From: Climacium dendroides | Lineage: Eukaryota; Streptophyta; Bryopsida; Hypnales; Climaciaceae | Direction of reading: 5' to 3' | Assembly (NCBI GenBank): GCA_950106755.1 | Contig: CATNNA010000005.1 | Coordinates: forward strand, 1,488,001-1,552,000 | DNA length: 64,000 nucleotides | Part shown: piece by piece, positions 23,001 to 45,513 of the stretch | Layout: each line of letters opens with the position of its first letter | Position numbering within the stretch: the first letter of the stretch is position 1 | Made by a program: the position numbers and the translations under genes | Notes under the pieces: generated by a model | The model's database searches: none | What the model saw: the letters and a program-made list of their open reading frames with translations, nothing else | What the model was told of the DNA's origin: nothing

Positions 23001-26000
23001 TTTTAGAGTATTTGTTTTGAAATCCATTTCAAATGAAGAAGATAGTGTAGGAAAGCAATAGGGTTGTCTTAAAATTAGGTTTTTCCATGAATCCTAATTT
23101 TTTGAACAATTGCAACTTGTGTGTTACGATTTGTGATATGCTTCCACGTCAAACTGATATAATTTATTGGTTTGGGTTCTATTAAACACAACATGATTTT
23201 TAGAGTATTTGTTTTGAAATCCATTTCAAATGAAGAAGATAGTGTAGGAAACCAATAGGGTTGTCTTAAAATTAAGTTTTTCCATGAATCCAAATTATTT
23301 TGAACAATTGCAACTTGTGTGTTACGTTTTGTGACATGCTTCCACGTCAAACCGATATAATTTATTCGTTTGGGTTGTATTAAATATAGCATGATTTTTA
23401 GAGTATTTGTTTTGAAATCCATTTTAAATGAAGAAGACAATGTAGGAAAGCAATAGGGTTGTCTTAAAATTATGTTTTCCTATGAATCCTAATCATTTTG
23501 AACATCTGCAACTTGTGTGTTACGTTTTGTGACATGCTTCCACGTCAAACCGATATAATTTATTGGTTTGGGTTCTATTAAACACAACATGATTTTTAGA
23601 GTATTTGTTTGGAAATCCATTTCAAATGAAGAAGATAGTGTAGGAAAGCAATAGGGTTGTCTTAAAATTAAGTTTTTCCATGAATCCTAATTATTTTGAA
23701 CAATTGCAACTTGTGTGTTATGTTTTGTGACATGCTTCCACGTCAAACCGATATAATTTATTGGTTTAGGTTCCATTAAATACAACATGATTTTTAGAGT
23801 ATTTGTTTTGAAATCCATTTCAAATGAAGAAGACAATGTAGGAAAGCAATAGGGTTGTCTTAAAATTAAGTTTTTCTATGAATCCTAATTATTTTGAACA
23901 ATTGCAACTTGTGAATTATGTTTTCGAACATGTTTCCACGTCAAATTGATATAATTTATTGGTTTGGGTTCTATTAAATACAGCATGATTTTTAGAGTAT
24001 TTGTTTTGAAATCCATTTCAGATGTAGAAGATAGTATAGGAAAACAATAGGGTTGTCTTAGAATTAAGTTTTTCCATGAATCCTAATTATTTTGAACAAT
24101 TGCAACTTGTGTGTTACGTTTTGTGACATGCTTCCACGTCAAACCGATATAATTTATTCGTTTGGGTTCTATTAAATATAGCATGATTTTTAGAGTATTT
24201 GTTTTGAAATCCATTTTAAATGAAGAAGACAATGTAGGAAAGCAATAGGGTTGTCTTAAAATGAAGTTTTCCTATGAATCCTAATTATTTTCAACATCTG
24301 CAACTTGTGTGTTACGTTTTGTGACATGCTTCCACGTCAAACCGATATAATTTATTGGTTTGGGTTCTATTAAACACAACATGATTTTTAGAGTATTTGT
24401 TTTGAAATCCATTTCAAATGAAGAAGATAGTGTAGGAAAGCAATAGGGTTGTCTTAAAATTAGGTTTTTCCATGAATCCTAATTTTTTGAACAATTGCAA
24501 CTTGTGTGTTACGATTTGTGATATGCTTCCACGTCAAACTGATATAATTTATTGGTTTGGGTTCTATTAAACACAACATGATTTTTAGAGTATTTGTTTT
24601 GAAATCCATTTCAAATGAAGAAGATAGTGTAGGAAAGCAATAGGGTTGTCTTAAAATTAGGTTTTTCCATGAATCCAAATTATTTTGAACAATTGCAACT
24701 TGTGTGTTACGTTTTGTGACATGCTTCCACGTCAAACCGATATAATTTATTCGTTTGGGTTGTATTAAATATAGCATGATTTTTAGAGTATTTGTTTTGA
24801 AATCCATTTTAAATGAAGAAGACAATGTAGGAAAGCAATAGGGTTGTCTTAAAATTATGTTTTCCTATGAATCCTAATCATTTTGAACATCTGCAACTTG
24901 TGTGTTACGTTTTGTGACATGCTTCCACGTCAAACCGATATAATTTATTGGTTTGGGTTCTATTAAACACAACATGATTTTTAGAGTATTTGTTTGGAAA
25001 TCCATTTCAAATGAAGAAGATAGTGTAGGAAAGCAATAGGGTTGTCTTAAAATTAAGTTTTTCCATGAATCCTAATTATTTTGAACAATTGCAACTTGTG
25101 TGTTATGTTTTGTGACATGCTTCCATGTCAAACCGATATAATTTATTGGTTTAGGTTCCATTAAATACAACATGATTTTTAGAGTATTTGTTTTGAAATC
25201 CATTTCAAATGAAGAAGACAATGTAGGAAAGCAATAGGGTTGTCTTAAAATTAAGTTTTTCTATGAATCCTAATTATTTTGAACAATTGCAACTTGTGAA
25301 TTATGTTTTCGAACATGTTTCCACGTCAAATTGATATAATTTATTGGTTTGGGTTCTATTAAATACAGCATGATTTTTAGAGTATTTGTTTTGAAATCCA
25401 TTTCAGATGTAGAAGATAGTATAGGAAAACAATAGGGTTGTCTTAGAATTAAGTTTTTCCATGAATCCTAATTATTTTGAACAATTGCAACTTGTGTGTT
25501 ACGTTTTGTGACATGCTTCCACGTCAAACCGATATAATTTATTCGTTTGGGTTCTATTAAATATAGCATGATTTTTAGAGTATTTGTTTTGAAATCCATT
25601 ATAAATGAAGAAGACAATGTAGGAAAGCAATAGGGTTGTCTTAAAATTATGTTTTCCTATGAATCCTAATTATTTTGAACATCTGCAACTTGTGTGTTAC
25701 GTTTTGTGACATGCTTCCACGTCAAACCGATATAATTTATTGGTTTGGGTTGTATTAAATATAGCATGATTTTTAGAGTATTTGTTTTGAAATCCATTTT
25801 AAATGAAGAAGACAATGTAGGAAAGCAATAGGGTTGTCTTAAAATTATGTTTTCCTATGAATCCTAATTATTTTGAACATCTGCAACTTGTGTGTTACGT
25901 TTTGTGACTTGCTTCCACGTCAAACCGATATAATTTATTGGTTTGGGTTCTATTAAACACAACATGATTTTTAGAGTATTTGTTTTGAAATCCATTTCAA

Positions 26001-28880
26001 ATGAAGAAGATAGTGTAGGAAAGCAATAGGGTTGTCTTAAAATTAGGTTTTTCCATGAATCCTAATTATTTTGAACAATTGCAACTTGTGTGTTACGATT
26101 TGTGATATGCTTCCACGTCAAACTGATATAATTTATTGGTTTGGGTTCTATTAAACACAACATGATTTTTAGAGTATTTGTTTTGAAATCCATTTCAAAT
26201 GAAGAAGACAATGTAGGAAAGCAATAGGGTTGTCTTAAAATTAAGTTTTTCCATGAATCCTAATTATTTTGAACAATTGCAACTTGTGTGTTACGATTTG
26301 TGACATGCTTCCACGTCAAACTAATATAATTTATTGGTTTGGGTTCTATTAATTACAACATGATTTTTAGAGTATTTGTTTTGAAATCCATTTCAAATGA
26401 AGAAGATAGTGTAGGAAAGCAATAGGGTTGTCTTAAAATTAGGTTTTTCCATGAATCCTAATTTTTTGAACAATTGCAACTTGTGTGTTACGTTTTGTGA
26501 CATGCTTCCACGTCAAACTGATATAATTTATTGGTTTGGGTTCTATTAAACACAACATGATTTTTAGAGTATTTGTTTTGAAATCCATTTCAAATGAAGA
26601 AGATAGTGTAGGAAAGCAATAGGGTTGTCTTAAAATTAAGTTTTTCCATGAATCCTAATTATTTTGAACAATTGCAACTTGTGTGTTACGTTTTGTGACA
26701 TGCTTCCACGTCAAACCGATATAATTTATTGGTTTGGGTTCTATTAAACACAACATGATTTTTAGAGTATTTGTTTGGAAATCCATTTCAAATGAAGAAG
26801 ATAGTGTAGGAAAGCAATAGGGTTGTCTTAAAATTAAGTTTTTCCATGAATCCTAATTATTTTGAACAATTGCAACTTGTGTGTTACGTTTTGTGACATG
26901 CTTCCACGTCAAACCGATATAATTTATTGGTTTAGGTTCCATTAAATACAACATGATTTTTAGAGTATTTGTTTTGAAATCCATTTCAAATGAAGAAGAC
27001 AATGTAGGAAAGCAATAGGGTTGTCTTAAAATTAAGTTTTTCTATGAATCCTAATTATTTTGAACAATTGCAACTTGTGAATTATGTTTTCGAACATGTT
27101 TCCACGTCAAATTGATATAATTTATTCGTTTGGGTTCTATTAAATACAGCATGATTTTTAGAGTATTTGTTTTGAAATCCATTTCAGATGTAGAAGATAG
27201 TATAGGAAAACAATAGGGTTGTCTTAGAATTAAGTTTTTCCATGAATCCTAATTATTTTGAACAATTGCAACTTGTGTGTTACGTTTTGTGACATGCTTC
27301 CACGTCAAACCGATATAATTTATTCGTTTGGGTTCTATTAAATATAGCATGATTTTTAGAGTATTTGTTTTGAAATCCATTTTAAATGAAGAAGACAATG
27401 TAGGAAAGCAATAGGGTTGTCTTAAAATTATGTTTTCCTATGAATCCTAATTATTTTGAACATCTGCAACTTGTGTGTTACGTTTTGTGACATGCTTCCA
27501 CGTCAAACCGATATAATTTATTGGTTTGGGTTGTATTAAATATAGCATGATTTTTAGAGTATTTGTTTTGAAATCCATTTTAAATGAAGAAGACAATGTA
27601 GGAAAGCAATAGGGTTGTCTTAAAATTATGTTTTCCTATGAATCCTAATTATTTTGAACATCTGCAACTTGTGTGTTACGTTTTGTGACATGCTTCCACG
27701 TCAAACCGATATAATTTATTGGTTTGGGTTGTATTAAATATAGCATGATTTTTAGAGTATTTGTTTTGAAATCCATTTTAAATGAAGAAGACAATGTAGG
27801 AAAGCAATAGGGTTGTCTTAAAATTATGTTTTCCTATGAATCCTAATTATTTTGAACATCTGCAACTTGTGTGTTACGTTTTGTGACTTGCTTCCACGTC
27901 AAACCGATATAATTTATTGGTTTGGGTTCTATTAAACACAACATGATTTTTAGAGTATTTGTTTTGAAATCCATTTCAAATGAAGAAGATAGTGTAGGAA
28001 AGCAATAGGGTTGTCTTAAAATTAGGTTTTTCCATGAATCCTAATTATTTTGAACAATTGCAACTTGTGTGTTACGATTTGTGATATGCTTCCACGTCAA
28101 ACTGATATAATTTATTGGTTTGGGTTCTATTAAACACAACATGATTTTTAGAGTATTTGTTTTGAAATCCATTTCAAATGAAGAAGACAATGTAGGAAAG
28201 CAATAGGGTTGTCTTAAAATTAAGTTTTTCCATGAATCCTAATTATTTTGAACAATTGCAACTTGTGTGTTACGATTTGTGACATGCTTCCACGTCAAAC
28301 TAATATAATTTATTGGTTTGGGTTCTATTAATTACAACATGATTTTTAGAGTATTTGTTTTGAAATCCATTTCAAATGAAGAAGATAGTGTAGGAAAGCA
28401 ATAGGGTTGTCTTAAAATTAGGTTTTTCCATGAATCCTAATTATTTTGAACAATTGCAACTTGTGTGTTACGTTTTGTGACATGCTTCCACGTCAAACTG
28501 ATATAATTTATTCGTTTGGGTTCTATTAAACACAACATGATTTTTAGAGTATTTGTTTTGAAATCCATTTCAAATGAAGAAGATAGTGTAGGAAAGCAAT
28601 AGGGTTGTCTTAAAATTAAGTTTTTCCATGAATCCTAATTATTTTGAACAATTGCAACTTGTGTGTTACGTTTTGTGACATGCTTCCACGTCAAACCGAT
28701 ATAATTTATTGGTTTGGGTTCTATTAAACACAACATGATTTTTAGAGTATTTGTTTGGAAATCCATTTCAAATGAAGAAGATAGTGTAGGAAAGCAATAG
28801 GGTTGTCTTAAAATTAAGTTTTTCCATGAATCCTAATTATTTTGAACAATTGCAACTTGTGTGTTACGTTTTGTGACATG
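20021..28880. repeat. 198-bp satellite array, higher-order domain II
   Basis: Same monomer family with a different higher-order structure. The marker CAGATGTAGAAGATAGTATAG recurs near 21,051, 22,635, 24,020, 25,405 and 27,186, giving spacings of 1584, 1385, 1385 and 1781 bp. These equal 8, 7, 7 and 9 monomers, the last three short by one base. The missing base comes from monomers with AATTTTTTGAAC instead of AATTATTTTGAAC (near 20,127, 23,097, 24,482 and 26,460), so that deletion was copied along with the unit. Confidence 0.93.
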
Positions 28881-29425
28881 CTTTCACGTCAAACCGATAT
28901 AATTTATTGATTTGGGTTCTATTAAATACAGCATGATTTTTAGAGTATTTGTTTTGAAATCCATTTTAAATGAAGAAGACAGTGTAGGAAAGCAATAGGG
29001 TTGTCTTAAAATTAAGTTTTTCTATGAATCCTAGTTATTTTGAACATTTGCAACTTGTGTGTTACGTTTTCGAACATGTTTCCACGTCAAGCCGATATAA
29101 TTTATTGGTTTGAGTTCTATTAAATACAACATGATTTTTAGAGTATTTATTTTGAAATCTATTTCAAATGAAGAAGACAGTGTAGGAAAGCAATTTGGTG
29201 TTATCTTAAAATTAAGTTTTTCCATGAATCCTAATTGTTTTGAACATTTGCAACTTGTTTGTTACATTTTTGGACATGCTTCCACGTCAAAGCGATATAA
29301 TTTATTGGTTTGGGTTTTATTAAATACAGCATGATTTTTAGATTATTTGTTTTGAAATCCATTTCAATTGAAGAAGTGTAGGAAAGCAATACGATTCTTT
29401 TGAATTAATTTTTGCAATGAATCCT
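28881..29425. repeat. Decayed right edge of the satellite array
   Basis: The last two to three monomers diverge strongly, with substitutions and small indels (near 29,020-29,110 and 29,190-29,300). The period breaks after about 29,420, where the final partial monomer merges into unrelated AT-rich DNA. Edge decay of this kind is usual for large satellites because homogenisation acts mainly on internal copies. Confidence 0.85.
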
Positions 29426-29603
29426 ACCCGATGAATTTATCCTCAAGATTTTAGTAGAATTTTTTTGTAGTAGATAAAATGCAGAGCAAGAAATGGTTTG
29501 GTGCTTGCTATGCTATCCATTCATCATTAGAATTTTATAAGAATTGTTGTGTAAAACTTTTAAATAAATCTTCAAATAAAAATCTCAAAAACTTTCTGAA
29601 GTA

Positions 29604-32590: not shown

Positions 32591-32689
32591 ACAACCACAT
32601 AAATTCATGGGAATCAACCCGGTATACCCGGGTATCATCCTAAATCCTTAAACGTATCAAGAATGAATGTTACATGATCCAAACTATAG

Positions 32690-33370
32690 TTCAGGTTGCA
32701 TCGACCTGAATTACAAAGCCCCTTAAAACATATCGCCTCTCAAACCAATGCTGCTGTCCGTGGTAGTTCATGGATAATTTTGAGATCAGATTAACATGAA
32801 TTTTAGGTCGGTTCGACCTGAACTGTACACCTACTACCATTGTGTGCATGAAGATTCAACTAAATAGCAGGTAATTGCACTAACATCTAAGACAAGAAAT
32901 AACAACATTGTTAACATCAAATGTAGATCAGGTCGGTCCGACCTAAACCCCACAGAAGACCCTATTCAATTTGATGCGTCAAGTCCATTGAGGTACCAAC
33001 ATAAAATTACTATTAGGAAATTAGACACCTAGTATAACTAAAAAATTGACCACTACAAACATTCTGAATTGTAAGGATAATGTACATAACATGAACTGAA
33101 CGACAATTCAGGTCGCATCGACCTGAATTGCATAGCCCCTTCAAACATATCCACTCTCAAATCAATGCCATTGCCCGTGCAAGTCCATGGATAATATTGA
33201 TATGAGATTAACATGCATTTCAGGTCGATCCGACCTGGAATGTACACCTACTAGCATTGTCTGCACAACTGTAAAAGGGACCCTATGCAATCTGACGCGT
33301 TAAATACATAGTGGTACCAACAAAAAAAATAATATTAGGATATCAGACACCTACTTTAATTAACACATTG
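32690..33370. repeat. Diverged duplication carrying paired palindromes
   Basis: The block from about 32,690 resembles the block from about 33,107 (offset 417 bp). Both contain a palindrome, then AAAGCCCCTT/ATAGCCCCTT, TCCATGGATAAT-like sequence, a second palindrome and GTACACCTACTA. Later parts (GACCCTAT, GGTACCAACA, ATTAGGA) also recur at a shorter offset. The palindromes are retained in both copies although the surrounding sequence has drifted. Confidence 0.75.
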
Positions 33371-33836
33371 AACATCAAATACATTTCCAATAATCATCAA
33401 GCTAACAACAATCGACCTCTCAAAATGAACGCATGCAATTCAGGTCGGACCAACCTGAATTGTAAGATCAGTAGTGAGATGAGTACGTACTACGACATGT
33501 ACGACGATACGATAACACTAAACAAAGCCGTCACACTAGGAAAAACATTCACATATTTCGACTATAACTTCAGGTTGACCCGACCTAAAGCGTGTGATAC
33601 AAACCGAACCAAATCCAAGTACACCAAATGCAAATAACTGGAAACACATAGAAGATGAAATCTAATAACCCCATGTATTCACATTTAGGTCGACTCGATC
33701 TGAATCAGTAGATTGCATTTAGGTCGACTCGACCTAAAACATACGAGGGGAACCAAACCGAAGTAAATTAGATCAAGTACGTAGAAAATAAATCTAGAAG
33801 CTCCAAGCACTAACATTCAGGTCGAATCGATCTGAA
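32690..33836. repeat. Cluster of ten 21-bp palindromes upstream of gene A
   Basis: Ten palindromes begin at 32690, 32802, 32927, 33107, 33219, 33439, 33569, 33684, 33718 and 33816. The arms are TTCAGGTCGA and TCGACCTGAA around one central base; TTTAGGTCGA/TCGACCTAAA is a frequent variant. Several keep perfect arms; others have one to three mismatches. Spacing is 34-220 bp. They lie in the 1.2 kb before the start codon of the ParB-like exon. They could be protein-binding sites, RNA hairpins or a dispersed repeat. Symmetry and position are seen; function is inferred. Confidence 0.9.
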
Positions 33837-33891
33837 TATATAGAGAAACAACTCTTGGTGTAACAATACCCGATTGAAAAATGAGTGCAGA

Positions 33892-35292
33892 ATGGATGAC
33901 CAAATCGAGAAGCTGGAGGCCTTCTACGTACGCTCTGCGCACGAATCCTCTGGAGAGGAAGGGGACGACTTTGACAATGACGGAGACTACTGGGAATTCA
34001 AAAATCCCAACAAGGTTGAGAGTTGGAGTCTCCACATGATTCCTTTCAAGAACCTCATTTGCTTCGCTGCAAAGTTCAAAGACACCGACCATTTCTTCAA
34101 CATATCCTTTGATGAGAAGATAAAGGACGTTGCCCACGATAGTGGTCCATTCTTGAAAATTCGGTGTATTATAGTTGTGACAGGACAGCCTGAAAGCGAG
34201 CAGTACCACTTCACTATTCGCTTGGACTCCTCAAGATGTGCCTTCAACATATCGCACTTCCTGTCAACGTTGGAACCAACTGAGTACAGAACGGAGATTC
34301 CCGACCTTGAGAAGAAGGTTGACCACAACTACTTCAAGACAAAGGACGGGAAGTTGGCAACGGGGAAGGCCCTATACTCTCGCCTGAAGACACTCCTGAA
34401 CGACTTCACAATTCTGAAGATGAAACTTGAGCTGAAGAAAAAAGACATGACTGTCAGAACTGTCTCCTAGGAGTTTCCAAGTAACGTGGAAGGATAGAAC
34501 TCAATGGGTACACCTGGAACCCAACAGAGTCGGGGGACAAGAAAGTCCATGCAGGCCGCAACTCCAGCACGAGCTCCCAGGTAAAGTAAATTGGCATCAA
34601 CCTCAGCAACGGCAACAGCAGCGCAAGACCCTAGTGTAGTTTTACCAGGGGAGCTGAGTTTTGTATCTGCGGTAACTGAGGTCCCGGTCCCTTATGACGC
34701 CAAGAAATCGCACGATTACATTGCGTCCGCGGAGGCATACAAGGCCTACTGGAAGCACTACACGGACGCCTACATCTTTGGCCTGGAGGATAAGAAGACA
34801 ATTTCCATTGAGCAGCTCATCAAGGCCCTAGAGGACTTAAACATCCGTAGCCATGAGATGAAGCTCGCGAAGGACATGATGACATACCTCTAGGAAATGC
34901 CAAATAAGTCCACAAAACAAACATTGTGTGTCATGCCAGTGGACTGCTTCGAGAAGCCATAGCCAGAGGACTGGCCAGCACTTGAAAGGAAGAACTTCTA
35001 CATCATCAATGGGCAACACAGTGTGACTGCCAGCAAAATGATGGTGGACCAAAACCTTGACGAAGAGATTGTCAAGAACTTTCGTCAATGGGATTGCTAC
35101 GTGGTCTGGTCCACAGATGCCCAGAAACTACGGGACATATCGGCGTACTACAATAGGGTCAACCACTTCGTGGCGCAGAAGCCCTCGTGGTCAACAAACA
35201 TTCTGGGAGCCAGAAAAGTGTGGGAACTCATGGGGAGGCCACGCAATCCGAAGGAAGCGGCCCCAATAGCGACAATGTCCAACGTCAGGTGA
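33892..35292 (+). CDS. Gene A, ParB-like N-terminal part (five in-frame TAR codons)
   Basis: A single reading frame runs from ATG 33,892 to TGA 35,290, broken only by TAG at 34468, 34495, 34891 and 34960 and TAA at 34582; there is no TGA and no frameshift. The first 190 residues are acidic at the N-terminus and unrecognised. The later part has the order typical of ParB/Srx-like folds: ISIEQLIKAL, a helix with R and K, the strand LCVMPVDCF, then YIINGQHSVTASKMM. The last motif matches the family box (V-x-x-G-x-H-R-x-x-A) with Ser in place of the conserved Arg. A second part, DISAYYNRVNHF to WELMGRP, follows. ParB domains fused to DNA methyltransferases are known in phages; here a methyltransferase-like exon lies downstream. 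The domain call is by motif only. The gene may be decaying, or TAR may be read as Gln. Confidence 0.55.
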
Positions 35293-35558
35293 AACGCTGA
35301 GAGTACAACAAATAAGAAGAAATTCATGGTAAGAGATTCAGGTCGAGTCGACCTGATCTGCGAATGTCGTCTTCCACCTAGTGTTCCAGCCAGAATAGGT
35401 GATGTATTGATTTACTTCACGTGATAATGAATGAAGAGTTTGAAGTAAGCAGAACGTTAATGGTAAATTTAACGTTCAATATGAAATGTGCAGTTTAGGT
35501 CGGTCCGAGCTGAATAGAGAGCTCCAAATTGACCGTGACATACAAAATTATGTTGCAG
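35293..35558. other. Probable intron or spacer with two palindromes
   Basis: Lies between the ParB-like frame and the next coding block. A candidate donor CAG|GTGAAA sits at 35,288/35,289 and an acceptor TTGCAG at 35,558, but the phases of the flanking frames do not match these borders, so the exact splice is unresolved. Palindromes lie at 35,337-35,357 (near perfect) and 35,494-35,514 (TTTAGGTCGG with an imperfect right arm). Confidence 0.5.
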
Positions 35559-36251
35559 GAATTCTCATCGGCAATGTACAAGCGGTTTGCTCTGCTAGAT
35601 GTACTAAAGGCCCAGAAGGCTGCAAAAGGCAAGGACGCCAAGGAGAAGCTCGAGATCCGAAACGAGCTGAAGATAATCACAGCTCCGGACGACATGTACA
35701 ACCTGTGGAGCGAGGTCATCTCTAGTGCTGCGCATGGGGAGTTGATAGATCCCAATACTAGACTGAAGTACAACGAGAAGGCCACTTGGAAGCCCGAGCA
35801 AGGGAATCTGATGCATGAGTTCTTCAAAGTGCTCGGAAACCTTTCCTTCAATGACTTGTCGAAGCTGGCCGAACATATTCTGCATCAGAATCCAGGGAGC
35901 AAGAACAAGGACTACCCGAAGGTCACAATCAAGCTTCTCTCTGCTGTACAGGAGAGCTGCTACACTGCTAGGGAGTGGGTGGAGAGAAGGAAGCGTAAGC
36001 ACAAGGTGAAGATGGAGCTTCACGCCCTGGACGCAAGTCTCGGGCTCATGTCCTCCTTGAACGAGCTGAACCACGAGAAGTGGAGGGAGTTCAAACGAAG
36101 TCGGAACTTCATGAGTGCTACCATGAACGTGCTGCTAAAGCAGCCAGAGAACGAATATTGGATGGAGGCGAAGCAGTCAAGAGCAAAGGGGAAGAGCGCT
36201 GAGGAGATGTCAATGTACGCGGTTGAGTTCTTCCGGGTCTTCCTGCAGTAG
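35559..36251 (+). CDS. Gene A, helical middle segment of unknown function
   Basis: About 230 codons, open from an acceptor-like TTGCAG to TAG 36,249. The product is rich in Lys, Glu and Leu and looks mostly alpha-helical: ALLDVLKAQKAAKGKDAKEK near the start, then MYNLWSEVIS, WVERRKRKHKVKME with a strongly basic patch, and SAEEMSMYAVEFFRVFLQ at the end. I recognise no family. The following block starts in another frame immediately after TAG 36,249, and that frame is already coding-like there, so a small indel probably separates two parts of one protein. It sits between the ParB-like and methyltransferase-like parts and may link them. Copy B lacks it. Confidence 0.5.
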   Translation, partial: EFSSAMYKRFALLDVLKAQKAAKGKDAKEKLEIRNELKIITAPDDMYNLWSEVISSAAHGELIDPNTRLKYNEKATWKPEQGNLMHEFFKVLGNLSFNDLSKLAEHILHQNPGSKNKDYPKVTIKLLSAVQESCYTAREWVERRKRKHKVKMELHALDASLGLMSSLNELNHEKWREFKRSRNFMSATMNVLLKQPENEYWMEAKQSRAKGKSAEEMSMYAVEFFRVFLQ

Positions 36252-36910
36252 AGAAACAATTTTGTGCCCCAAAATCCACTGCATACTATCGTCCATATGA
36301 CGTTATGTATAAGACGCACCAGGATTGGCCTAGAGGCGTGCTCACTGCAGAGAACGTGAAGGACATCAAGCTTGGAGTGTGGGACCTGCGTTACACCCCG
36401 AATGTGGTGTCAAAGTCTAAGTGTACGCCAGCCGATCCATACTTCGCTACAGTTGTCGAGTCCTTCCAAGAAAAGGGCCAGTCCCTTCTCGAGGACATTC
36501 CGGTGTGGGTGCTCATTTGTTCCGACCTCACCGAGCAAACGCAAGCACTTCACTTCATAGACAGCAATCCCGCGTTGAAGGAGTACTCCATGAGTTTCTC
36601 TAATTACATTCCCTCACCCAATGAGCGTATCGGTGACTTGTCTGCACGAAGCAAGAAGGCGGTGGAACCAATTTACCTGACCATCCTGCAAAGCCCAAGC
36701 AATGCTAGGACGGTGAGAATGAGGTCTTCCTATGATGCTCCCAATACTGAAACATTCACGAGGCCCGGGGCTTACAACGAGCTAGAGTTTAGGATTAATA
36801 ATACTGAGCTACGGATGGAGTTCTTCCTCAATCTTGTGAGGAAATTCTGCGCTCCTGGAGCAAGCGTAATGTCATTCTTCGCCGGGTCGAAGTTCACATG
36901 TGCTGCGATG
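36252..36910 (+). CDS. Gene A, methyltransferase-like exon (first part)
   Basis: The frame is coding-like from about 36,252; the first ATG is at 36,305. It ends at a clear donor (GCGATG|GTAAGC). Homologous over its length to 40,919-41,521 in copy B: HQDW/HKDW, LGVWDLR/LGVLDFR, PYF, WVLICSD/WLFICGD, NELEFRINNTELRMEFF/SELEYRIHPTELRMEFY. The end, KFCAPGASVMSFFAGSKFTCAAM, has the layout of motif I of class I methyltransferases (F-x-G-S), preceded by a helix that carries Lys and Phe. Motif I at the C-terminal end would mean the permuted order of beta-class DNA amino-methyltransferases. The catalytic D/N-P-P-Y box is not clear (ADPYF at best), so activity is doubtful. The family call is an inference from motif layout. 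Confidence 0.55.
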
Positions 36911-37244
36911 GTAAGCCTGAACACAATGAATTCCACAATGTAATGTTTTGGCTATGGTTAAGGTCGATTCGACCTGAATAAAATGAACATGTATTTCTTC
37001 TTGAAATTATAAGGTGATAAAAACCAGGTCGGGTCGACTTGACTCATAGCATTGACTGGAGTGTGTTCCTCCATAGTTTGGCTCGACCTGACTAGTGGCA
37101 TTGAGTGAACTTGAGTGAACTTCAGGTCGGGTCGACCTGACCCAACCTATTGTTGACGTTACATGAAGTACCATTGTATCCTCGTTAGGGAATTTTCATA
37201 CTATCGTAATCTGATAGTATGTGACGCTGCTTGTGACTTTGCAG
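36911..37244 (+). other. Intron of gene A with three palindromes
   Basis: GTAAGC donor and TTTGCAG acceptor, 334 bp. The same phase and residue context (Ala-x-Met | Met-Ser-x-Val-Asn-Val-Phe) occurs in copy B, so the intron predates the duplication. Palindromes lie at 36,958-36,978, near 37,025 (imperfect) and at 37,121-37,141, plus a half-site (GGCTCGACCTGAC) near 37,080. Confidence 0.85.
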
Positions 37245-38220
37245 ATGAGTGGGGTTAATGTGTTTGCAGTGGGGCACGTGGAGGAGTCTGACCAGTGGAC
37301 TGAAATTGCAACCACTGTGAAGAAACTAGATAAGAACGATTTTCTTCTAGAGGGATACTTTGTTGATGAGGGCAAATTCTCGCGCCGACCATCGGGGTCA
37401 AGCACGCCTTCGTCATCAAAGCGCAAGAGGAAGGCAACTGGAGAGGCAAGCACGCCATCCGGTCGGAGGTCATCTGCAATCATATTGTGTGAGTCCTCCG
37501 ACAACGATGGGGCAGCTAGTGATGACGACTACGACGATGATGTTCCCATGGATTGGAGCACCCCTTTAGTGATCCGCTCTCAAAGCATCCGGGGATCATC
37601 AACGTCGTCGGGTCAACCACTTGACACCTCTGCCATGCCGTCTCCAACCTCTAGGGAGAAGCGGAAGAGGGGAAGATCGCAAGCCGACAACAACTATGAT
37701 GCAGAAATTGTAGAGCTGAAGAGGAGGCGGGAACTGGATCAAATGATGTTTGACAGGCAGGCCAGGGAGATGGCGGAGTTGCGACAGTTTATGGTGGCAA
37801 TGTCACAAAAGAACGACTCCAAACTAGAGGCCATTATCAACAGTCTTGGTGGGGCCATGCCTCTAGCATTTGTACAACCGTCTCAGGTTGACCAAGAGCT
37901 TTTGCTAGAGGGAGCGCCAGCAAGACCAACGATGAGTGGATCCTCAAGCTTACCCTCCACTCCACGATTGACTGGGGTGCCTTCTGTCTCTCTCACTCCT
38001 CTTGCAGGTTGCGCAGATCCTCCAGCTCCTCTTCCTACTAAGGAGTGCTCCTCGACCCCTGCACCTCCACCTAATGACGAGGACATGGCTCGAGTTCCAC
38101 TTGATGGTGGCAGGTCCTCAGAGACCTTGGAGTCTAGCCCGAAGATGCCCGCGGATCCTGCCATCGCCATTGATGATGATCGTCCGAGTCATGCATTAGA
38201 TGGCCAGGATGCACCATTAG
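37245..38220 (+). CDS. Gene A, methyltransferase-like C-terminus plus charged linker
   Basis: The exon follows TTTGCAG and starts MSGVNVFAVGHVEESDQW, which would complete the strand after methyltransferase motif I (hydrophobic strand, then acidic residues). The rest is low complexity: Ser/Pro/Thr-rich, with basic nuclear-localisation-like clusters (SSSKRKRKA near residue 57, REKRKRGR near 139), an acidic run (ASDDDYDDDVPMD), a helical heptad region (EIVELKRRRELDQMMFDRQAREMAELRQF) and a Pro-rich tail. It ends at ATTAG|GTTGAC. The leftover base joins the two leading bases of the exon at 38,472 in frame. No TAR codon occurs in this exon although about 14 Gln are encoded by CAA/CAG. Nuclear location is inferred. 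Confidence 0.6.
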
Positions 38221-38471
38221 GTTGACCACACAATCACTCGATGTCATTTGTATAGAATTAGCTCGACTCGAGCTGATTTGTATCATAGGTTGTACTTAGA
38301 TAGAGACCCTTAGTGTGGGAGACAATACTTTTTGATAGAAAACAATCTTTTGACAAATCCATATCTTCATATAAGATGATGACTTTTTTGTACTTAATTT
38401 TATTAATCAATTATACGGATTTTTCTGTAAAAATTTTAAGTCTTGTTTGTCTGGCCCTTCCTGAATTGCAG
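38221..38471 (+). other. Intron of gene A with one palindrome
   Basis: GTTGAC donor, AATTGCAG acceptor, 251 bp. The join is supported by agreeing phases (1 + 2 bases). It contains one imperfect palindrome at 38,258-38,278 (ATTAGCTCGACTCGAGCTGATT type), matching the single palindrome in the corresponding intron of copy B. Confidence 0.75.
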
Positions 38472-38704
38472 AACCTCCTCTGATGGCTATCTCAACTGGA
38501 CCGAATGATCTTCCGAAATCTATTGATCTTGTACAGCATGTACAATGTCCAACATTTGGTTGTGGCATTATAGAAGCTACAAGTGGAGGTGCACCGGAAT
38601 CTGAGTCCATGCACTTAGATGATGACGTCTCTATTCCCGACGCTCAGCTTCTGGAGATTGAAATGCCAGACCCTGTTGGACCGACGTTGTCTTTGCCGGA
38701 AAAG
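38472..38704 (+). CDS. Gene A, short linker exon before the FCP1-like domain
   Basis: About 78 codons between AATTGCAG and the donor GAAAAG|GTAATC. It encodes an acidic linker (HLDDDVSIPDAQLLEIEMPDP) ending SLPEK. Copy B has a shorter exon at the same place ending SALEK before GTATAAT, in the same phase. Phase 0 at the 3' end fits the next exon at 38,861. No domain recognised. Confidence 0.6.
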
Positions 38705-38860
38705 GTAATCTCGTGCCCATGCGTCCTTGATCTCTGTGCTAATAGGTACCTCTCTGTTCATATATAGTCTGCGACAATTGGATTTTGTCTTTTTCCTTGA
38801 GTTTCGAAATGTGTTAGTGCAGCTTAGTAACTAGCTACACATTTGTCCGTTTGATAGCAG

Positions 38861-39660
38861 GGATCGGTTCCCCCATCTGAACGTGGAGATACGTTAAAAG
38901 ATGTTGAGATTCCATTGACGTCTAGGGTGACTGTCGCCGAGAAGTGGCTAAATGTTGTCCTGGACTTGAATGGAGTCTTGTGTGTCTGTGAAGACGCCAA
39001 GTACAAGGGGTGGATTGTGCACGTCGGGAATGTAGACCAACCGCACTCCGCCACGATTCCTGCGATTGTGGGACCTAAGGTGGTCTTTGTCCACCCAAAT
39101 TGCGCTCATTTTCTTCGTGAGCTAGGATTGATAGCACACGTTTCTATTTGGAGCTCGATGAAGAAGTTTACCGTTCAAAAATCGTCGATTATCTTTTTGT
39201 CGGTTTGGATAAGCCTCGCATTATACTTGGGCAGGAGTCTTGCACGACACTCAAGTGTGAGGAACAAGGCCGGATAGTCACATTCAAGGAGCCAGGCACC
39301 ACCAAGGACCTGTTCGTGAAGGACGCGAACACCTTGTTTAATAATTTCAATGGGCAATTTCTTCGAGAGAATACTATCATAGTTGACGATAGTCCTATGA
39401 AGCACTTCATGAACAAGTCGGAGAACGTCGTTCTCCCCATCAGTTGGTCTTCCAAGGGTAACGGCCCTAGGGACTCATATTTGGACATGGTCCTTTTGCC
39501 CTGGCTCAGGCGACTTCACGTAGCTCGAGATGAAGGGTTGAAATCATTTCGCAAGAGTAGTGCGGGGAAAATTGGGCGGAAGATGTTGTATGATGAGAGA
39601 AATCGTGGCATGTACAATAGTCTTATGGATGCAGTCAGAGTGTCTTCAGCGTACCGATAG
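38861..39660 (+). CDS. Gene A, FCP1/HAD-phosphatase-like domain (one frameshift)
   Basis: The exon follows GATAGCAG. HAD/FCP1 features in order: EKWLNVVLDLNGVLC (motif I, nucleophile Asp kept, second Asp replaced by Asn), VSIWSSMKK (motif II with Ser), KEPGTTKDLF (motif III Lys), NTIIVDDSPMKHFMNKSENVV (motif IV acidic pair), then SW and LLPWL as in FCP1/SCP-type CTD phosphatases. A run of A near 39,176-39,181 shifts the frame: the first half is in one frame up to about 39,180 and the rest in another (open from 39,148). Copy B is unbroken here. TAG 39,658 lies at the same alignment position as TAG 44,123 in copy B, ten residues after YNSLM. The Asp-to-Asn change argues against normal FCP1 catalysis. 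Confidence 0.7.
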
Positions 39661-40060
39661 CGCACTGCATTTCATTGTTGTTCATGAGCCACGTGGATGT
39701 AGTGACTGTGTCATCGTCTAATCGGCGTTACGAGAGGGTAGTTTATTTATTGCTTTAGTTCAGGTCGAGTCGTGCTGAATGGCATGTGGATTGTTCTCTG
39801 AGTTCCTAGTGAACTTCAGCTCGCCTCGACCTTAATGGCTCGTGCATTCGCATGTATGGTTAGAGATATACGTAATTTCTGTAATATAATTTTTTTATGA
39901 ATACCTTTCTGTATTTTCTTCTTCCTCCAGTTTAGGTCGGGTTGACCTCATTCGATGGCCAGGACTTCCTAGACTGCAAATTTGCTATTGGAGTTTATTT
40001 GTAAATGTAATGATAGTTACAGTTTTTGATTGAATTGTTCTAATCTCTTTGTTTTCTTAG
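39661..40060 (+). other. Intron or spacer of gene A with three palindromes
   Basis: Ends at the acceptor TTTTCTTAG before 40,061; the donor is not identified. Palindromes lie at 39,759-39,779 (right arm CGTGCTGAA), 39,814-39,834 and 39,931-39,951, all of the GGTCGA type with mismatches. The corresponding place in copy B has two palindromes of the GCGCGA type. Confidence 0.65.
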
Positions 40061-40497
40061 AATTTGGGAATGTCGTCCTCTCTAGTTCGGCACACCAGTC
40101 TTCCGTGCACTGCATCAGCTGACTCTTTCTCCGACTACAGGCAGAATCTAATTCTGAGTACAGGAAACTTCATGTGTTCGGCTGCCACTGCAAATTCGAC
40201 AATGGACTTCTCCCTAAAGCCCATTGATGATGGGGTGGTGGATAGTCCCCCGGGTTCAGCTCCACATCGTCCAAAATCATGTTCTCCATTGCTCATGAAG
40301 TCTAGCGATGTTTTTGCTACACCGATGTCGTCCTCACCTTGCGATAGAGCAACACAACGGAAACTATATGGTGAGGACGTGGGTCCTTCTTCAGATGTTC
40401 AAGGAAGTAGGAGGGCTTTCCAAGCTCATGAATTACAAGCAAGTACAACCATAGGCCGAAGATGACGAAGGCAATCGTGGAGCTCAAGAGTAAATGA
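40061..40497 (+). CDS. Gene A, C-terminal exon, Ser/Pro-rich
   Basis: Opens after TTTTCTTAG. It encodes a Ser-rich tail with LILSTGNFMCSA, NSTMDFSLKPIDDGVVDSPP and CDRATQRKLYGED. Copy B at 44,431 has LILSTGDFLCSA-like, NSTMDFSVKHVEDGVVDSPP and GT*RKLYGD, with TAG where A has CAA. The frame ends at TGA 40,463; a neighbouring frame (HRPKMTKAIVELKSK, ending TGA 40,495) resembles the copy B terminus better, so an indel near 40,440 is likely. DGVVDSPP could be a phosphorylation or docking motif; that is a guess. Confidence 0.55.
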
Positions 40498-40918
40498 CAC
40501 GTATAGTACTTGTTCATAGTGTAGAGTCATACATTCATGCTTCATGAAAGCTCAATGTGCATATTACAAAAGAACTCAGAGCTCGAGTGAATCACACTCG
40601 TAGCTTTTACAGTGTACACAGAACAATGTAATGAACTACATTACTGGCCTTTATAGTTCGTTGCCCGTAGTATAGTGTCACTGGACCTAACCAAGCATAG
40701 TTGGAGATGTATGGAACAACTCATGGTGTACAAGTGAAAGGTCAATATGAACGTTTACCTAGTGGTTCTGATATTTGATTCCTACTTGTGTTCATCTGAT
40801 TTTAATTCTTGTATGATTTGAATATTGTTTGAGGAATTCTCTTCTCCGTTTTCAAATGAAATTAGACTTCTGTAACTCTCATTTCGGTGGAATACTCTCA
40901 TTTTAATGAATATTACGT
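40498..40918. other. Spacer between gene copies A and B
   Basis: AT-rich, no gene. It shares TACTTGTTCATAGT and a stretch ending TCTCATTTTAATGAATATTA-like with the sequence after copy B (45,065-45,420), so it is the 3' flank of a duplicated unit. No promoter is evident for copy B. Confidence 0.6.
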
Positions 40919-41521
40919 TTGGTGGGCAATATACACAAGGACTGGACAGCGAATGTGATGACTGAGCAAATCGCCAAAAATATGGCGCTTGGGGTTCTCG
41001 ACTTCAGGACAATGCCCGGGATTCAGAAGAAGCAGAGCTCCACAATCGACCATCCGTACTTCATTGAAGTACTCACCTCGATGGCCAAGACAAAGAAACC
41101 TGCCCTTGAAGATGTCCGAGTATGGCTCTTTATTTGTGGGGACGAAAAGGAACAATCTCAAGTCCTCCATTGGATTGAATCCAATGTGGTCTTGAAAACC
41201 TTCCAGGTTTCATACGCTTTGTACTGTCCCAGCAAGAACGATCGACTCGGTGATTGCTCAGCTGCGAAAACGTCGAAGAAAGTGTAGCTGATCTTTCTGC
41301 AAAACCCAACCAATGTCAACAAGGTGGCCATTCCAGATGAATTTGAATGTCCAGAGACGGCACGGTATGTCAAGCCGCGCGCATACAGCGAGCTGGAATA
41401 TCGAATCCATCCCACCGAATTGCGAATGGAGTTCTATCTGTGGATCGTCAAGAAGTTCTGCAAGTCTGGGATGTCAATATACTCGGGCTTCGTTGGAGGA
41501 AAGCTGAGGTGGGCAACAATG
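40919..41521 (+). CDS. Gene B, methyltransferase-like exon (first part)
   Basis: Paralogue of 36,305-36,910. The frame is open from about 40,919 to the donor ACAATG|GTAAGAGG with one TAG at 41,285. Shared blocks: HKDW, LGVLDFRTMPG, PYFIEVL, ALEDVRVWLFICGDEKEQSQVLHWIESN, SELEYRIHPTELRMEFYLWIVKKFC, then GMSIYSGFVGGKLRWATM. The glycine-rich motif reads FVGGK where copy A has FAGSK. The start is unclear: homology begins abruptly after the spacer and no counterpart of the ParB-like or helical parts exists, so copy B is 5'-truncated or begins elsewhere. Methyltransferase assignment is by motif layout only. Confidence 0.55.
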
Positions 41522-41751
41522 GTAAGAGGTTTCTGTCAATTGTTTAGCGCGAGTCGCGCTAAAATGACCTGTTGTATTAACGCGAGTCGCGCTGAAGTCA
41601 CTTGCGTTACATATTCAATAGTCTGTACATGTAGACTTCTTCATAGTATCCCTGTCTTCACATTTCTAGAAACCAATAATTTAGCGCGACTCGCGTTGAA
41701 TTCTGGATCCTCAGTACAGGATTAGACTGATCCTCTTTGTTCTGTTGGCAG
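41522..41751 (+). other. Intron of gene B with three palindromes of the second type
   Basis: GTAAGAGG donor, TTGGCAG acceptor, 230 bp, at the same codon position as the 36,911-37,244 intron of copy A. Palindromes at 41,543-41,563 (perfect: TTTAGCGCGA / TCGCGCTAAA), about 41,577-41,596 and 41,680-41,700. Copy A's intron also has three, but with GGTCGA arms. Confidence 0.88.
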
Positions 41752-42790
41752 ATGAGTGATGTGAATGTCTTTGCCACTGCTTTAGCTAGTCAATCAGCAT
41801 GGTGGGACGAAATTTGTGTCAAGGCGATGACACTTGACATCGTGGATTTCTTTGACACTGGGTACTCAATGCTTGGTGATCAAGGTCAATGCTCAACACC
41901 CTCGTCCTACAAGAAAAAGCTGAGGTCAAGCCAATGCTCTCCTCTCAATTTGCAGAAGAATGTTGAGAGCCCTGTCTACAACGAAGCAGAGTCCGAATTC
42001 AAGGAGGAGGAGGAGGGAGAAGAGATTGTAGATGACGGTCCGGAAGGACTTGATGAAATGGCGACACCGACCAATTGCATATCAGCGGATGTACCCGGTT
42101 CATCGGCAAGCTCCATGTTGCCACCGTTGTCGCAGATACCAATGACTCCTGTCGGATCTAGATGGCCAACGAAAAAGAGGAAGCGCGATACAATTGCAAG
42201 TATTGCGAGCGAATTGGCCAAAATTTCTCAGCGGCATAACGAGTCCATGCAACAGATGCAACAGCAAGCTCTGATGGCGCAACAAAAGACCGAGCTTGCA
42301 CTGGCGCAAATGGTGGCCGATCAAGCGAAGGAGAGGCTGGCAAACATTGAGTTGCATAAGGCCAGTCAGAAGTGGATGTAGGAGGAGTCGAGGGCCAACC
42401 GAGAGCTTGCTCAGCAGAACAGGGAGATGCTCCAGCTCTTATTCAAGAAGGTTGGTGTGGAGCCAATCCAGAGGCTGCCACCCGCTGAACCATCGCCCAT
42501 GCTGTTCACCCAGGGTCAGCCCTCTGGCTCGAATATCAGCAATGCTTCGAGTCCGTCGTAGGTAGTGCCCATGCCACCACCTCTTCCCGTAGAGACGCCC
42601 GAACCGCCAGTTCCTATACCGATTGAAGAAGTTGAAGCCAAGGAACTTGCACCAACGGAGATTGGCCGTCCTAAATTCCAAGCTGAGACTGAGACGGCAA
42701 CGGAGGCAGGCATTGAGCAGAACCTGTCCAGGGATGCTTCCAAGGTGGAGTTCGGAAGTGATGCCCTGCCCACCGAAGATCAACCTGCAA
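41752..42790 (+). CDS. Gene B, methyltransferase-like C-terminus plus charged linker
   Basis: Starts MSDVNVFATALASQSAWWDE after TTGGCAG, parallel to copy A. An acidic run (EFKEEEEGEEIVDD), a basic cluster (TKKRKRD) and a long Gln-rich helix (ESMQQMQQQALMAQQKTELALAQMVADQAKERL) follow, then a Pro/Glu tail. TAG at 42,379 and 42,559 interrupt the frame, but it remains coding-like on both sides (KWM*EESRANRELAQQNRE). The exon end is placed at GCAA|GTTCTG because one leftover base plus GC at 43,041 keeps the frame of the next exon. Coiled-coil and nuclear roles are inferred. Confidence 0.55.
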
Positions 42791-43040
42791 GTTCTGCACA
42801 ATAAACTTCTGTTCGGAATGCGTGATGCAGATTTAGCGCGACTCGCGCTAAACTGTGTGATAGATTCCTAGCTGATTTTTTTGTATGTACATACAACGCT
42901 AGATGTCAAGCGGATGTTTTGTAGCTATAGTAGTTGCCAGTAGATATATCTAGAGTGAGTTTTGTATTCTAAAAGATGATGTCTCTGAAATTATAATATA
43001 TCTCTCACAGAGAAACGTTTTCCCGATTTTGGAATTGCAG
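42791..43040 (+). other. Intron of gene B with one palindrome
   Basis: GTTCTG donor, AATTGCAG acceptor, 250 bp; the phase matches on both sides and the length is nearly that of the copy A intron (251 bp). One perfect palindrome at 42,832-42,852 (TTTAGCGCGA / TCGCGCTAAA around C). Confidence 0.72.
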
Positions 43041-43168
43041 GCCTTTGGAATATTGAATCATGTCCTGAAGATTGTGTTGTCCCTCCGATGCAAAATCTGC
43101 TACAGACGAGTCCAAATTCGGCCAGTTGCAAAAACGTTGATTAGCCTTCACAGTCAGCATTGGAGAAG
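43041..43168 (+). CDS. Gene B, short linker exon
   Basis: Counterpart of 38,472-38,704 but about half as long. The frame set by the upstream exon reads LWNIESCPEDCVVPPMQNLL and ends SALEK before GTATAAT, as copy A ends SLPEK before GTAATC. One TAG at 43,142 (NVD*PSQS). Exon borders rest on splice consensus and phase agreement, not on transcript data. Confidence 0.5.
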
Positions 43169-43327
43169 GTATAATCTCTACTTCCTTCTTCATGACGCGG
43201 CCGGACTTTGTTAACATTTTTTCAATCCCGGTCGGGGAATGCTTTTGTCTGATTTGTCTTGAATGTTGTTCCAATGAAGCCAGTTTCACGATTGTAACTG
43301 GCTGGAAATTCCTACGTTTGTTAGTAG

Positions 43328-44125
43328 GGGTCTCATCCTATAGTAGATCGTGAGGGATCTTTGTAGGCCGTCCATCGTCCATTGAGGTTTGGGGGGGCAG
43401 AGAAGTGGTTGAACGTCGTCCTGGACCTCAATGGCATCTTATGTCGCTGCGAGGACATGAAGTCTAACCCTTCCATCAAGCAGTTTAACAAGGCCTCGGA
43501 CCTGTACTCAGCCACCATTCCTGCCGCTGTCGAACCCAAAGCGGTTTATGTTTGTCCCAATTGCGCCGAGTTCTTGAAGGAGCTACAGAAGATCGCAAAC
43601 ATTTCTGTATGGAGCTCCATGAAGAAAACAACGGTCGATGAAATTGCTATCTACCTCTTTCGTGAGGAAAAATGGCCCTTCCTTGTTCTTAGGCAGAACT
43701 CCTGCAAAACGATCAAGCGCAAGGACAAGGCCGGGAGATTGGTGGCTTACAAAGAGCCGGGAACGGATAAGGACTTGTTCCTTAAAAACCTCGATGTCCT
43801 TTTTGGTGGCTTCCATGGGATTTTTGCTCCCGATAACACTGTCATAGTCGATGACAGCCCTCGCAAACACCTCATGAATAAGCCCGAAAATGTAATTTTG
43901 TTGGATTCGTGGAGTAACCGAGGGAATGGGGACAAGGACACGACTCTTCTATCCATCTTACTGCCGTGGTTGCAAAAATTGAACGGCAGCCGCAACATTG
44001 GTCTCAAGTCCTTTAGGGAGGATAAGATGTAGAGGATTGGAAGACGAATGCTGTGCGAGGAACGAGGTCGTCGAGAATATAACAGTCTCATGGAGATCTT
44101 GCTTGGGCCTGTTGTTGTTAGTTAG
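43328..44125 (+). CDS. Gene B, FCP1/HAD-phosphatase-like domain
   Basis: The exon follows TTAGTAG and starts GSHPIVDREGSL (copy A: GSVPPSERGDTL). Motif I is EKWLNVVLDLNGILC with Asn for the second Asp; motif II SVWSSMKK; motif III KEPGTDKDLFLKN; motif IV NTVIVDDSPRKHLMNKPENVI; then DSWS and LLPWLQKL, the usual end of FCP1/SCP-type domains. There are no indels relative to the family, unlike copy A. TAG at 43,364 and 44,030 lie in frame and coding-like sequence continues after each (RIGRRMLCEERGRREYNSLM). TAG 44,123 is at the same position as the TAG of copy A and may be the true stop of this exon or a sense codon. Known substrates of the family are phospho-Ser/Thr proteins such as the RNA polymerase II CTD; the Asn change makes a binding or regulatory role as likely. 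Confidence 0.72.
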
Positions 44126-44430
44126 ACTAACTGGTGGAGGTATGCGGTCAAGCTCTCGCTGTTTGCATGTTGCAGTTCCTCTAATTCTCACGCACTGTAT
44201 TTTAGCGCGCTTCGCGCTAAGATGTGGTAGGCGATCATGGCGTTTGTGAATAACACTTTCCTCCTTTATAAATGCTGAAGTTTAGCGCGCTTTGGGCTAA
44301 TATGTTGTTTGAGTTGAAGTTTGTTTAGTTAGCCTATATTCCATCCCTTCTGCTTTCGCTTCATCGTGGACTTGCTATGATTGTGCTTGGTTGAAGGTTC
44401 CAATGCTAATTCTCTTCCGTTTTCTATCAG
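44126..44430 (+). other. Intron or spacer of gene B with two palindromes
   Basis: Ends at the acceptor TCTATCAG. Palindromes at 44,201-44,221 (TTTAGCGCGC / TTCGCGCTAAG) and 44,281-44,301 (right arm degraded to TTTGGGCTAA). A possible donor is GGAG|GTATGC near 44,138. Confidence 0.65.
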
Positions 44431-45066
44431 GTGAGAAGTCCCTCTGCAAAATCTAGAAGGGGTGGGGTCTTCCCATGTCAAGCGTCAGAGGACTCCCTTC
44501 TTCACTATGGACAATACGTTATTCTTAGCACGGGGGACTTCCTGTGCTCGGCTCCAACATTGAATTCCACCATGGATTTCTCTGTGAAGCATGTCGAGGA
44601 CGGAGTGGTGGACAGTCCTCCGGAGAAGAAGCCGCGCTTGCCAGTTTCGTGCTCGCCATCCCCTTTGCGCTCCAGGGAAGTCAGGAATTCCTCATCGTCG
44701 CCGACTACTTCAGAGAAAGGGACGTAGAGAAAGCTCTATGGAGATGCGAATTATCTAATGAAGATAACAGAAGTGAAAAACGATGCGCCACATGACTTGA
44801 ACGTGGAAATCAATGCTTCCCACGTTGCACAGCTTCTGCTCCCACGTCGTGCACCGGCTGAAGCAAGTAAGTTGAAGAGGAAAGTCGAGAGGCCGGCGTG
44901 TACTCATTCCTTGACTTCCACTTGGGACTCTGCAAAATGGAGGTCACTATAGGCACAGCGGAGGAAATACATGCGCCAGGAGGGTGCGGGTGTCAGGCCA
45001 AAATGCAGTCGAGGCCCGGAAATTTGGAGGGCCCTTGAGAAGCTCAGGAGTACATCACGTAGTTAA
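44431..45066 (+). CDS. Gene B, C-terminal exon, Ser/Pro-rich and basic
   Basis: Counterpart of 40,061-40,497. One frame runs from the acceptor TATCAG to TAA 45,064, with TAG at 44,725 and 44,950 inside. Conserved block: ILSTGDFLCSAPTLNSTMDFSVKHVEDGVVDSPP. At 44,725 the reading is GT*RKLYGD where copy A has ATQRKLYGED, so TAG aligns with a Gln codon (CAA). After 44,950 the frame still reads AQRRKYMRQEGAG and ends KLRSTSRS. No frameshift is seen. Function unknown. Confidence 0.55.
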
Positions 45067-45067
45067 T

Positions 45068-45180: not shown

Positions 45181-45416
45181 AGGTGGCATGCATATGAGAT
45201 GAATTTTGCTTATTATTCGGAATTCAATCAGTGCATTGATGCATATCTTTTCCACATTCCTTAATTTCAGACCTCTCTTGATTGCAACTCAATGATTTTT
45301 ACGTGTTGGAGACTTGTCATTCTTCCCAATTTGCAATAATGAGCCTTATGAAATTACGAAGTCATTCAAAATTTACTCCCATTTCACTGGAAAACTCCCA
45401 AAATATTGAATATACC

Positions 45417-45513
45417 GTTACTAGAAAACACGCCCTAGAGGGCGCATTCTGCTATGCAAGTAGGTCATAGACAAGACCTAGCCCGTGAGTAGGGCAGAAT
45501 TCGCCCTCTAGGG
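45417..45513. repeat. Compact hairpin (foldback or MITE-like)
   Basis: Outer arms CGCCCTAGAGGGCGCATTCTGC (45,431-45,452, given in two overlapping parts CGCCCTAGAGGGCG and GCGCATTCTGC) and GCAGAATTCGCCCTCTAGGGCG (45,491-45,511, as GCAGAATTCG and CGCCCTCTAGGGCG). Inner arms TAGGTC and GACCTA. CGCCCTAGAGGGCG is itself palindromic. The left boundary ACTAGAAAAC resembles a degenerate CACTA-type terminus, so this may be a small CACTA derivative; target duplications are not evident. Confidence 0.7.

Follow-up and report, generated by a model that had tools for sequence, protein, structure and literature searches.

What gives a 21-bp palindrome one spelling throughout the introns and upstream DNA of one gene copy and another, equally symmetrical spelling in the next copy? 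This question is raised by a 64,000-bp stretch of the Climacium dendroides genome (here the window; C29:1488001-1552000, part of a 412.6-Mb genome in 123 contigs), in which two related genes, copy A and copy B, each carry their own version of such a site. Hereafter, C-numbers denote contigs, L-numbers DNA stretches fetched from the genome and P-numbers protein relatives. The palindromes lie in the non-coding DNA of transposons that have recognizable ends and two genes, and in the loci examined the spelling of their arms matches the clade of the element. The reading favored here, with a probability of about 0.58, is that each family encodes a ParB-like protein that would read its own family's site to regulate or shield the element.

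The A- and B-type consensus sequences were scanned over the whole window, on the plus strand of the palindrome. As had been counted in an earlier note on this DNA, there are 19 A-type sites (at most five mismatches of 20), all within 32,690-39,951, and six B-type sites (41,543, 41,576, 41,680, 42,832, 44,201 and 44,281), spanning 41,543-44,301. At three mismatches or fewer, 14 A-type and five B-type matches are found, against a mean of 0.00 in 100 shuffles each. When sites of any type are counted at up to four mismatches, 23 lie in 32,601-45,419 and zero in 20 dinucleotide shuffles of each of four regions. Genome-wide, a generic pattern of the palindrome finds 3,915 sites and the reversed pattern six. 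A chance origin is ruled out by the shuffles and the reversed-pattern count. None of the 23 site centres falls in a modelled exon, although exons make up 8,122 of these 12,819 bases.

Ten A-type palindromes form a cluster upstream of A (32690..33836, no strand assigned; at 32690, 32802, 32927, 33107, 33219, 33439, 33569, 33684, 33718 and 33816), and L009 and L024 also have upstream clusters. Two more (35337 and 35494; 35337..35514, no strand) are in the first intron of A. Three later introns on the plus strand of A, 36911..37244 (sites at 36958, 37023 and 37121), 38221..38470 (one site at 38257, with D-like arms AGCTCGA) and 39661..40060 (39759, 39815 and 39931), correspond in position to three plus-strand introns of B, 41522..41751 (41543, 41576 and 41680), 42789..43042 (42832) and 44126..44430 (44201 and 44281). 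The match of intron positions thus stands as first described, while the match in numbers needs correction, in that the A intron at 36911..37244 has an extra half-decayed site at about 37,072 (by eye). Once the sites are masked, two of the three pairs of introns align no better than 100 shuffled versions do; the first pair scores 68.5, equal to the best of 100 shuffles (mean 51.8), so that a trace of old similarity may remain there.

The two copies had been taken for tandem duplicates. A tandem duplication is ruled out by identifiable element ends, and A and B are most likely members of related DNA transposon families, one nested in the other. The A-family element ends on the right in a terminal inverted repeat at 40889..40919 (no strand), and the same end occurs in L028 and L029 with different flanks. 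The corresponding right end of the B-family element is the terminal inverted repeat at 45389..45419 (no strand), where homology to other B-clade loci stops: in five of the seven others it does so within 2 bases of 45,419, with five different flanks, and the remaining two diverge earlier. Copy B begins mid-gene one base after 40,919, and the A element therefore most likely sits inside the gene of B, whose 5' half would be expected past the satellite at the left of the window.

What carries the sites was examined in twenty 10-kb stretches, fetched from listed places on four contigs. They represent 18 loci that hold exact A-type sites and do not include isolated ones (C1:16262259 and C1:21890796, for instance). 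In 16 of the 18, 8-15 A-type sites stand directly upstream of all or part of a gene that matches the DUF7869 protein of L005 (985 aa), the one product of this gene scanned against Pfam. L009 holds gene A, and the adjoining stretch L027 a DUF7869 gene; L011 holds only non-coding element DNA. Scatter of the palindrome without relation to this gene family was accordingly not seen: 17 of the 18 loci hold an element gene or part, and the 18th holds non-coding DNA of the element. On the DUF7869 side, 13 of the 16 copies compared share one end and differ in their flanks; L023 breaks off earlier, and neither L020 nor L009 has a match in the stretch compared. The two element ends, AACACAATATTC and AACGTAATATTC, are imperfect inverted repeats beginning AAC, with 13 of their first 16 bases alike. 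One complete A-family element measures 20,070 bp (C1:14670150-14690219) and comprises, in order, the DUF7869 gene (leftward), a site array, a 198-bp tandem repeat, a spacer, more sites and gene A (rightward). Its two genes, one for the DUF7869 protein (a putative transposase) and one for a ParB-like/methyltransferase-like/FCP1-like protein, are thus divergently transcribed. The element is flanked by ATTG, 4 bp repeated on both sides in this one copy; Sola-type DNA transposons have a 4-bp target duplication and a Sola transposase. The DUF7869 protein matched no NCBIfam family, and a PDB sequence search with it gave one row at E 2. The earlier proposal that each arm sequence is confined to the introns and flanks of its paralogue is too narrow, because the DUF7869 gene carries an array too.

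This arrangement suggests another candidate reader. Subterminal repeats bound by transposases exist in DNA transposons, as in CACTA (En-Spm) and others, and the moss elements resemble these in having many copies of a short site. The DUF7869 putative transposase might likewise bind the palindromes, which would then serve excision and not regulation, and the arrays of 8-15 sites directly upstream of its gene in all 16 loci that have it would suit such a role. However, all 30 sites of the complete element lie at least 3.8 kb from one end and at least 0.9 kb from the other, which makes a subterminal transposase site less likely, and sites in introns and upstream regions have no obvious use to an end-binding transposase. 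The moss sites are internal and intronic, not subterminal, and the ends begin AAC, not CACTA. Binding by the transposase is considered unlikely.

Three further observations were made on these elements. At three places, L016 (C1:24136001-24146000), L024 (C4:2747001-2757000) and window position 40919, an A-family end falls within or immediately next to a further gene copy from the superfamily, as nested insertion would produce. The A-type sites of a diverged DUF7869 gene in L019 (4195-5029; 83-88% identical) form an array with a spacing of 44/45 bp, that of the main family being 57 bp. Past the A-family element end in L006 (2197-3761), there are open reading frames (ORFs) resembling another methyltransferase-like protein (by eye), and two pieces that were scanned gave no significant Pfam match.

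Arm types were followed beyond the window in the first 50 of the 3,915 sites listed, on C1 up to 8.18 Mb. These form clusters each of a single type (10 B, 32 C and 8 A). The 10 B sites belong to the B-clade FCP1 locus C1:471802, and some of them form a group roughly 7 kb beyond it, the expected place of the partner gene. Type C is spelt TTTAGG[GAT]CGGnCCG[CTA]CCTAAA, and three of the listed C clusters contain FCP1 loci (C1 positions 5157002, 7775967 and 8058180). In these three C genes, sites are found about 1.7 kb and about 3.4 kb 5' of FCP1 and further upstream, as well as about 340 bp 3' of FCP1 in two of them (none among the listed sites for 8058180), a layout resembling that of A and B. 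Another C gene, in L016/L026, has 7 C sites. A search with the FCP1 domain of B gave 1,168 candidates, among which the 150 loci scored show identities to B of 88-100% (17 loci), 70-71% (4 loci) or 57-68% (the others). The eight loci inspected, all of the B clade and including the window itself, have B-type sites only (20 sites in seven loci viewed over 3.6 kb round the FCP1 exon, and six in the window's B at full length), and each of the 8 B-clade loci aligned keeps the site at 42832, either intact or with a single change. Three A copies carry mainly A-type sites. Type D (AGCTCGA arms) is rare, with 19 exact sites genome-wide, 10 of which crowd into a 7.8-kb part of C34; six decayed sites of a diverged gene in L019/L025 also come closest to it. 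There are hence at least four arm spellings (A, B, C and D) in this genome, and it is supported that arm type follows element clade in the loci examined. The suggestion that the sites change in concert with the gene carrying them has support as well, with a third type in a third clade and a fourth type besides.

The A and B consensus sequences differ at half-site positions 3, 6 and 7, each change being mirrored in the other arm, as pointed out before. Relative to A, type C has changes at positions 3 and 10, again mirrored, with position 7 free, and type D at position 6 (mostly 3 as well). Such differences among the four types would be the pattern of a dimer-read operator whose reader has changed. 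In 185 sites with flanks, which were chosen by consensus match and are mutually related, the arm positions have an information content of 1.1-2.0 bits; the central base has 0.07, and no position beyond the 21 bp has more than 0.6. Within type A, changes are mostly single C/T or G/A transitions in either arm, as decay predicts.

Several findings weigh against a strict code in which each family has one symmetrical spelling. Position 7 of type C varies (G, A or T), and the arms disagree there in 19 of the 32 listed sites, while all nine other arm positions match between arms in 32 of 32. The A spelling in the window is not uniform, because 35,494 and 39,815 are mixed half-sites leaning to another spelling and 38,257, with its AGCTCGA arms, leans likewise. 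Mixed arm types in one gene are thus found to a weak degree: three sites are nearest D in each of three A copies (3 of 17 in the window, 3 of 21 in L009 and 3 of 14 in L024/L028), the D pattern having two fewer fixed positions, and on C1 an exact D site (16,262,144) and an exact A site (16,262,259) are 115 bp apart (C1:16262144-16262279).

Type C also bears on the idea that the palindromes act as RNA hairpins in transcripts, for splicing or as small-RNA precursors. Near-perfect inverted repeats in introns and leader regions could indeed fold. A hairpin is, however, poorly served by a one-base loop and by arms that disagree at position 7 of type C. Selection for pairing would moreover favor changes that keep a G-U wobble; in 224 sites scored in gene orientation, which are kin and not independent copies, 127 changes keep the wobble and 132 leave an A-C mismatch, and as these are equally common, no pairing constraint shows. 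The decay thus lacks a hairpin signature, and the intron hairpins proposed at first are hardly credible.

Uniformity of the sites might also come from recent copying and not from recognition, if the palindromes were tiny self-copying insertions, like miniature inverted-repeat transposable elements (MITEs) or introners, spreading within the element. Tandem copying does occur, as seen in the arrays with 57-bp spacing upstream of DUF7869 genes and in a 417-bp spaced repeat upstream of A. Yet matching intron positions are kept in the A, B and C genes though the masked introns of A and B hardly align, and information falls away just outside the 21 bp; target duplications round single sites were not searched for. 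This origin is considered very doubtful.

The protein encoded by the A-type gene is the preferred candidate for a reader of the sites. Its fold was modelled through relatives: 21 rows gave a poor structure (mean predicted local distance difference test score, pLDDT, 43), and 98 rows, of which 86 came from the 120 listed relatives and 12 were stretches of loci and window, gave a usable one (mean 63.6). The relative P0005 models with a ParB-like domain and, less certainly, an N6-methyltransferase-like domain, followed by an FCP1-like domain. The match in this model is to the N-terminal fold of ParB that binds cytidine triphosphate (CTP). The CTP-binding box of ParB is GxxR, with an arginine; in 59 aligned rows no arginine occurs at its last position, and the box reads INGQH[SN] in 54 of the 59. 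After the ParB-like N-terminal domain, where ParB and Noc have a helix-turn-helix domain that reads DNA, the model places helices at 369-523, in a block with pLDDT 37-74. PF03031 of Pfam is matched by P0001 (E 3.1e-13) and, above the cut-off, by copy B (E 1.8e-18). The catalytic motif of FCP1/NIF phosphatases is DxDx(T/V); it is not matched in A, B and the six relatives where the place was located, which read DLNG. A PDB sequence search with the protein profile gave nothing convincing, and PHROGs gave one weak family of unknown function. The ParB-like domain in the model of a relative makes it plausible that the palindrome is a recognition site of the encoded protein, as the earlier note had offered.

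A host factor, or the methyltransferase-like domain of the same protein, could bind the sites in place of a ParB-like dimer. The commonest centre of the palindrome is GANTC, which is the site of CcrM. The centre, however, is not constant in type A, and all 32 listed C sites have GGNCC there. The string DPP[YFW] is present in none of the 120 relatives, nor in A or B; the place taken as equivalent to the catalytic DPPY/W of beta-class N6-adenine DNA methyltransferases reads D-[LFM]-R in 15 of 15 rows. On the varying centre and the absent DPP[YFW], the idea that the palindrome exists for the sake of GANTC methylation was judged weak, and a reader of either kind is considered very improbable.

Under the favored reading, in which the ParB-like protein is the reader, the palindrome would be an operator-like site distributed over the non-coding DNA of the element, in introns as well as upstream of the two genes. 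It would be bound by the ParB-like protein that the element itself encodes, acting as a dimer; with one subunit on each half-site, a change would have to appear in both arms. With many sites per element, many dimers might be loaded, so as to mark the whole element, and this marking may control expression of the element or hold off host silencing. If the specificity of the protein shifted in a lineage, the sites would follow. Anti-silencing as the purpose of site reading is possible, although we would sooner bet against it. The wider picture, that a clamp protein like ParB or Noc was taken up by a plant DNA transposon whose non-coding DNA became filled with parS-like palindromes, as a self-recognition code that split into at least four spellings when the transposon families diverged and that marks the element against host silencing, is put forward tentatively, at somewhat less than even odds.

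Two known systems offer comparisons. As described in PMC5735166, VANC proteins of the VANDAL transposons of Arabidopsis bind a short motif crowded in the non-coding DNA of their own family, upstream of VANA and in introns, and motif and protein diverge together through tandem repeat formation. By the accounts in PMC5735166 and PMC10398659, VANC causes loss of DNA methylation in its own family, a role that the moss protein might share. The moss elements also crowd a motif in non-coding DNA, in upstream regions and introns, whereas the VANC21 motif, as given in PMC5735166, has 9 bases arrayed in one orientation and the moss site is a 21-bp palindrome. No Mutator or VANC family was found in Pfam scans of the element proteins; VANC sequences were not compared. 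The partner gene in moss is that of DUF7869 and the accessory protein is ParB-like/methyltransferase-like/FCP1-like, whereas VANDALs are Mutator-like transposons. In bacteria, ParB reads the palindrome parS, possibly in several copies, and the related Noc reads NBS, which differs at half-site positions 1 and 6 according to PMC7383237 and is 16 bp long according to PMC8429893. The likeness here is a ParB-like fold, by fold match only, together with a palindromic site. ParB and Noc are bacterial and act in chromosome segregation or division control, whereas the moss protein belongs to a plant transposon and is fused to methyltransferase-like and FCP1-like domains.

That a protein of a transposon can co-evolve with a motif in non-coding DNA is already known in principle. 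For the palindromic version, with at least four spellings in ParB-like/methyltransferase-like/FCP1-like moss elements, no description was found in the open-access literature searched (mostly titles and abstracts). The pairs of protein and site (A, B, C and D) form a natural series in one genome, allowing a direct test of how a DNA-binding protein and its site co-evolve. If the favored reading is true, they would provide a counterpart of VANC anti-silencing in a plant lineage far from Arabidopsis, based on a fold that is mostly familiar from the partition of bacterial chromosomes. Physcomitrium patens, which has multi-copy relatives of the gene, is a tractable laboratory relative for such work. 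The only relatives found for the joined translation of copy A are seven proteins of this species, with 92-93% identity to P0001.

As for the gene copies themselves, all on the plus strand, copy A consists of a 5' coding part with an N-terminal domain and the ParB-like domain (33892..35288, the frame broken by in-frame stops), a middle part with a helical region and the methyltransferase-like domain (35559..36910, one frameshift), both assigned from the fold of the relative, a low-complexity exon (37245..38220) and an FCP1/NIF-like phosphatase domain (38861..39657, one frameshift). The 3' part of this last domain matches PF03031 at E 0.00044 (20.4 bits, cut-off 21.8), and the domain is 54% identical to the clear match of B. 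Copy B comprises a methyltransferase-like exon (40920..41521) that starts mid-gene at the end of the A element, a glutamine-rich exon (41752..42788) and an FCP1/NIF-like phosphatase domain (43367..44125). The proteins of A and B are 42-54% identical. An alternative genetic code (TAG or TAA for glutamine, or TGA for tryptophan) was entertained for A and B, where stops are mostly TAG, and was rejected because L009, a close copy, has an uninterrupted frame in the standard code at the places of the first three stops and both frameshifts of A; L009 has a stop of its own further on. Decay of methylated CAG in plant transposons yields TAG. The in-frame stops of decayed copies (A, B and the FCP1 candidate loci) are mostly TAG, which fits decay of CAG at methylated CHG sites.

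The left part of the window (1..29426, no strand) is a satellite of 148.7 copies of a 198-bp tandem repeat, detected by Tandem Repeats Finder and identified by blastn of element copies to the window as the internal 198-bp repeat of A-family elements, greatly expanded. The 198-bp period continues throughout the 10 kb to the left of the window (L031 1-10000), so that the array exceeds 39 kb. It appears to have been seeded by the internal tandem repeat of an A-family transposon. At the other side, the minus strand of window positions 48000-62400 has ORFs of 565 aa (60625-62322) and 348 aa (54262-55308) with no Pfam match above the cut-off. They look like another repeated element family, because similar text (by eye) occurs in L025 (1661-3250).

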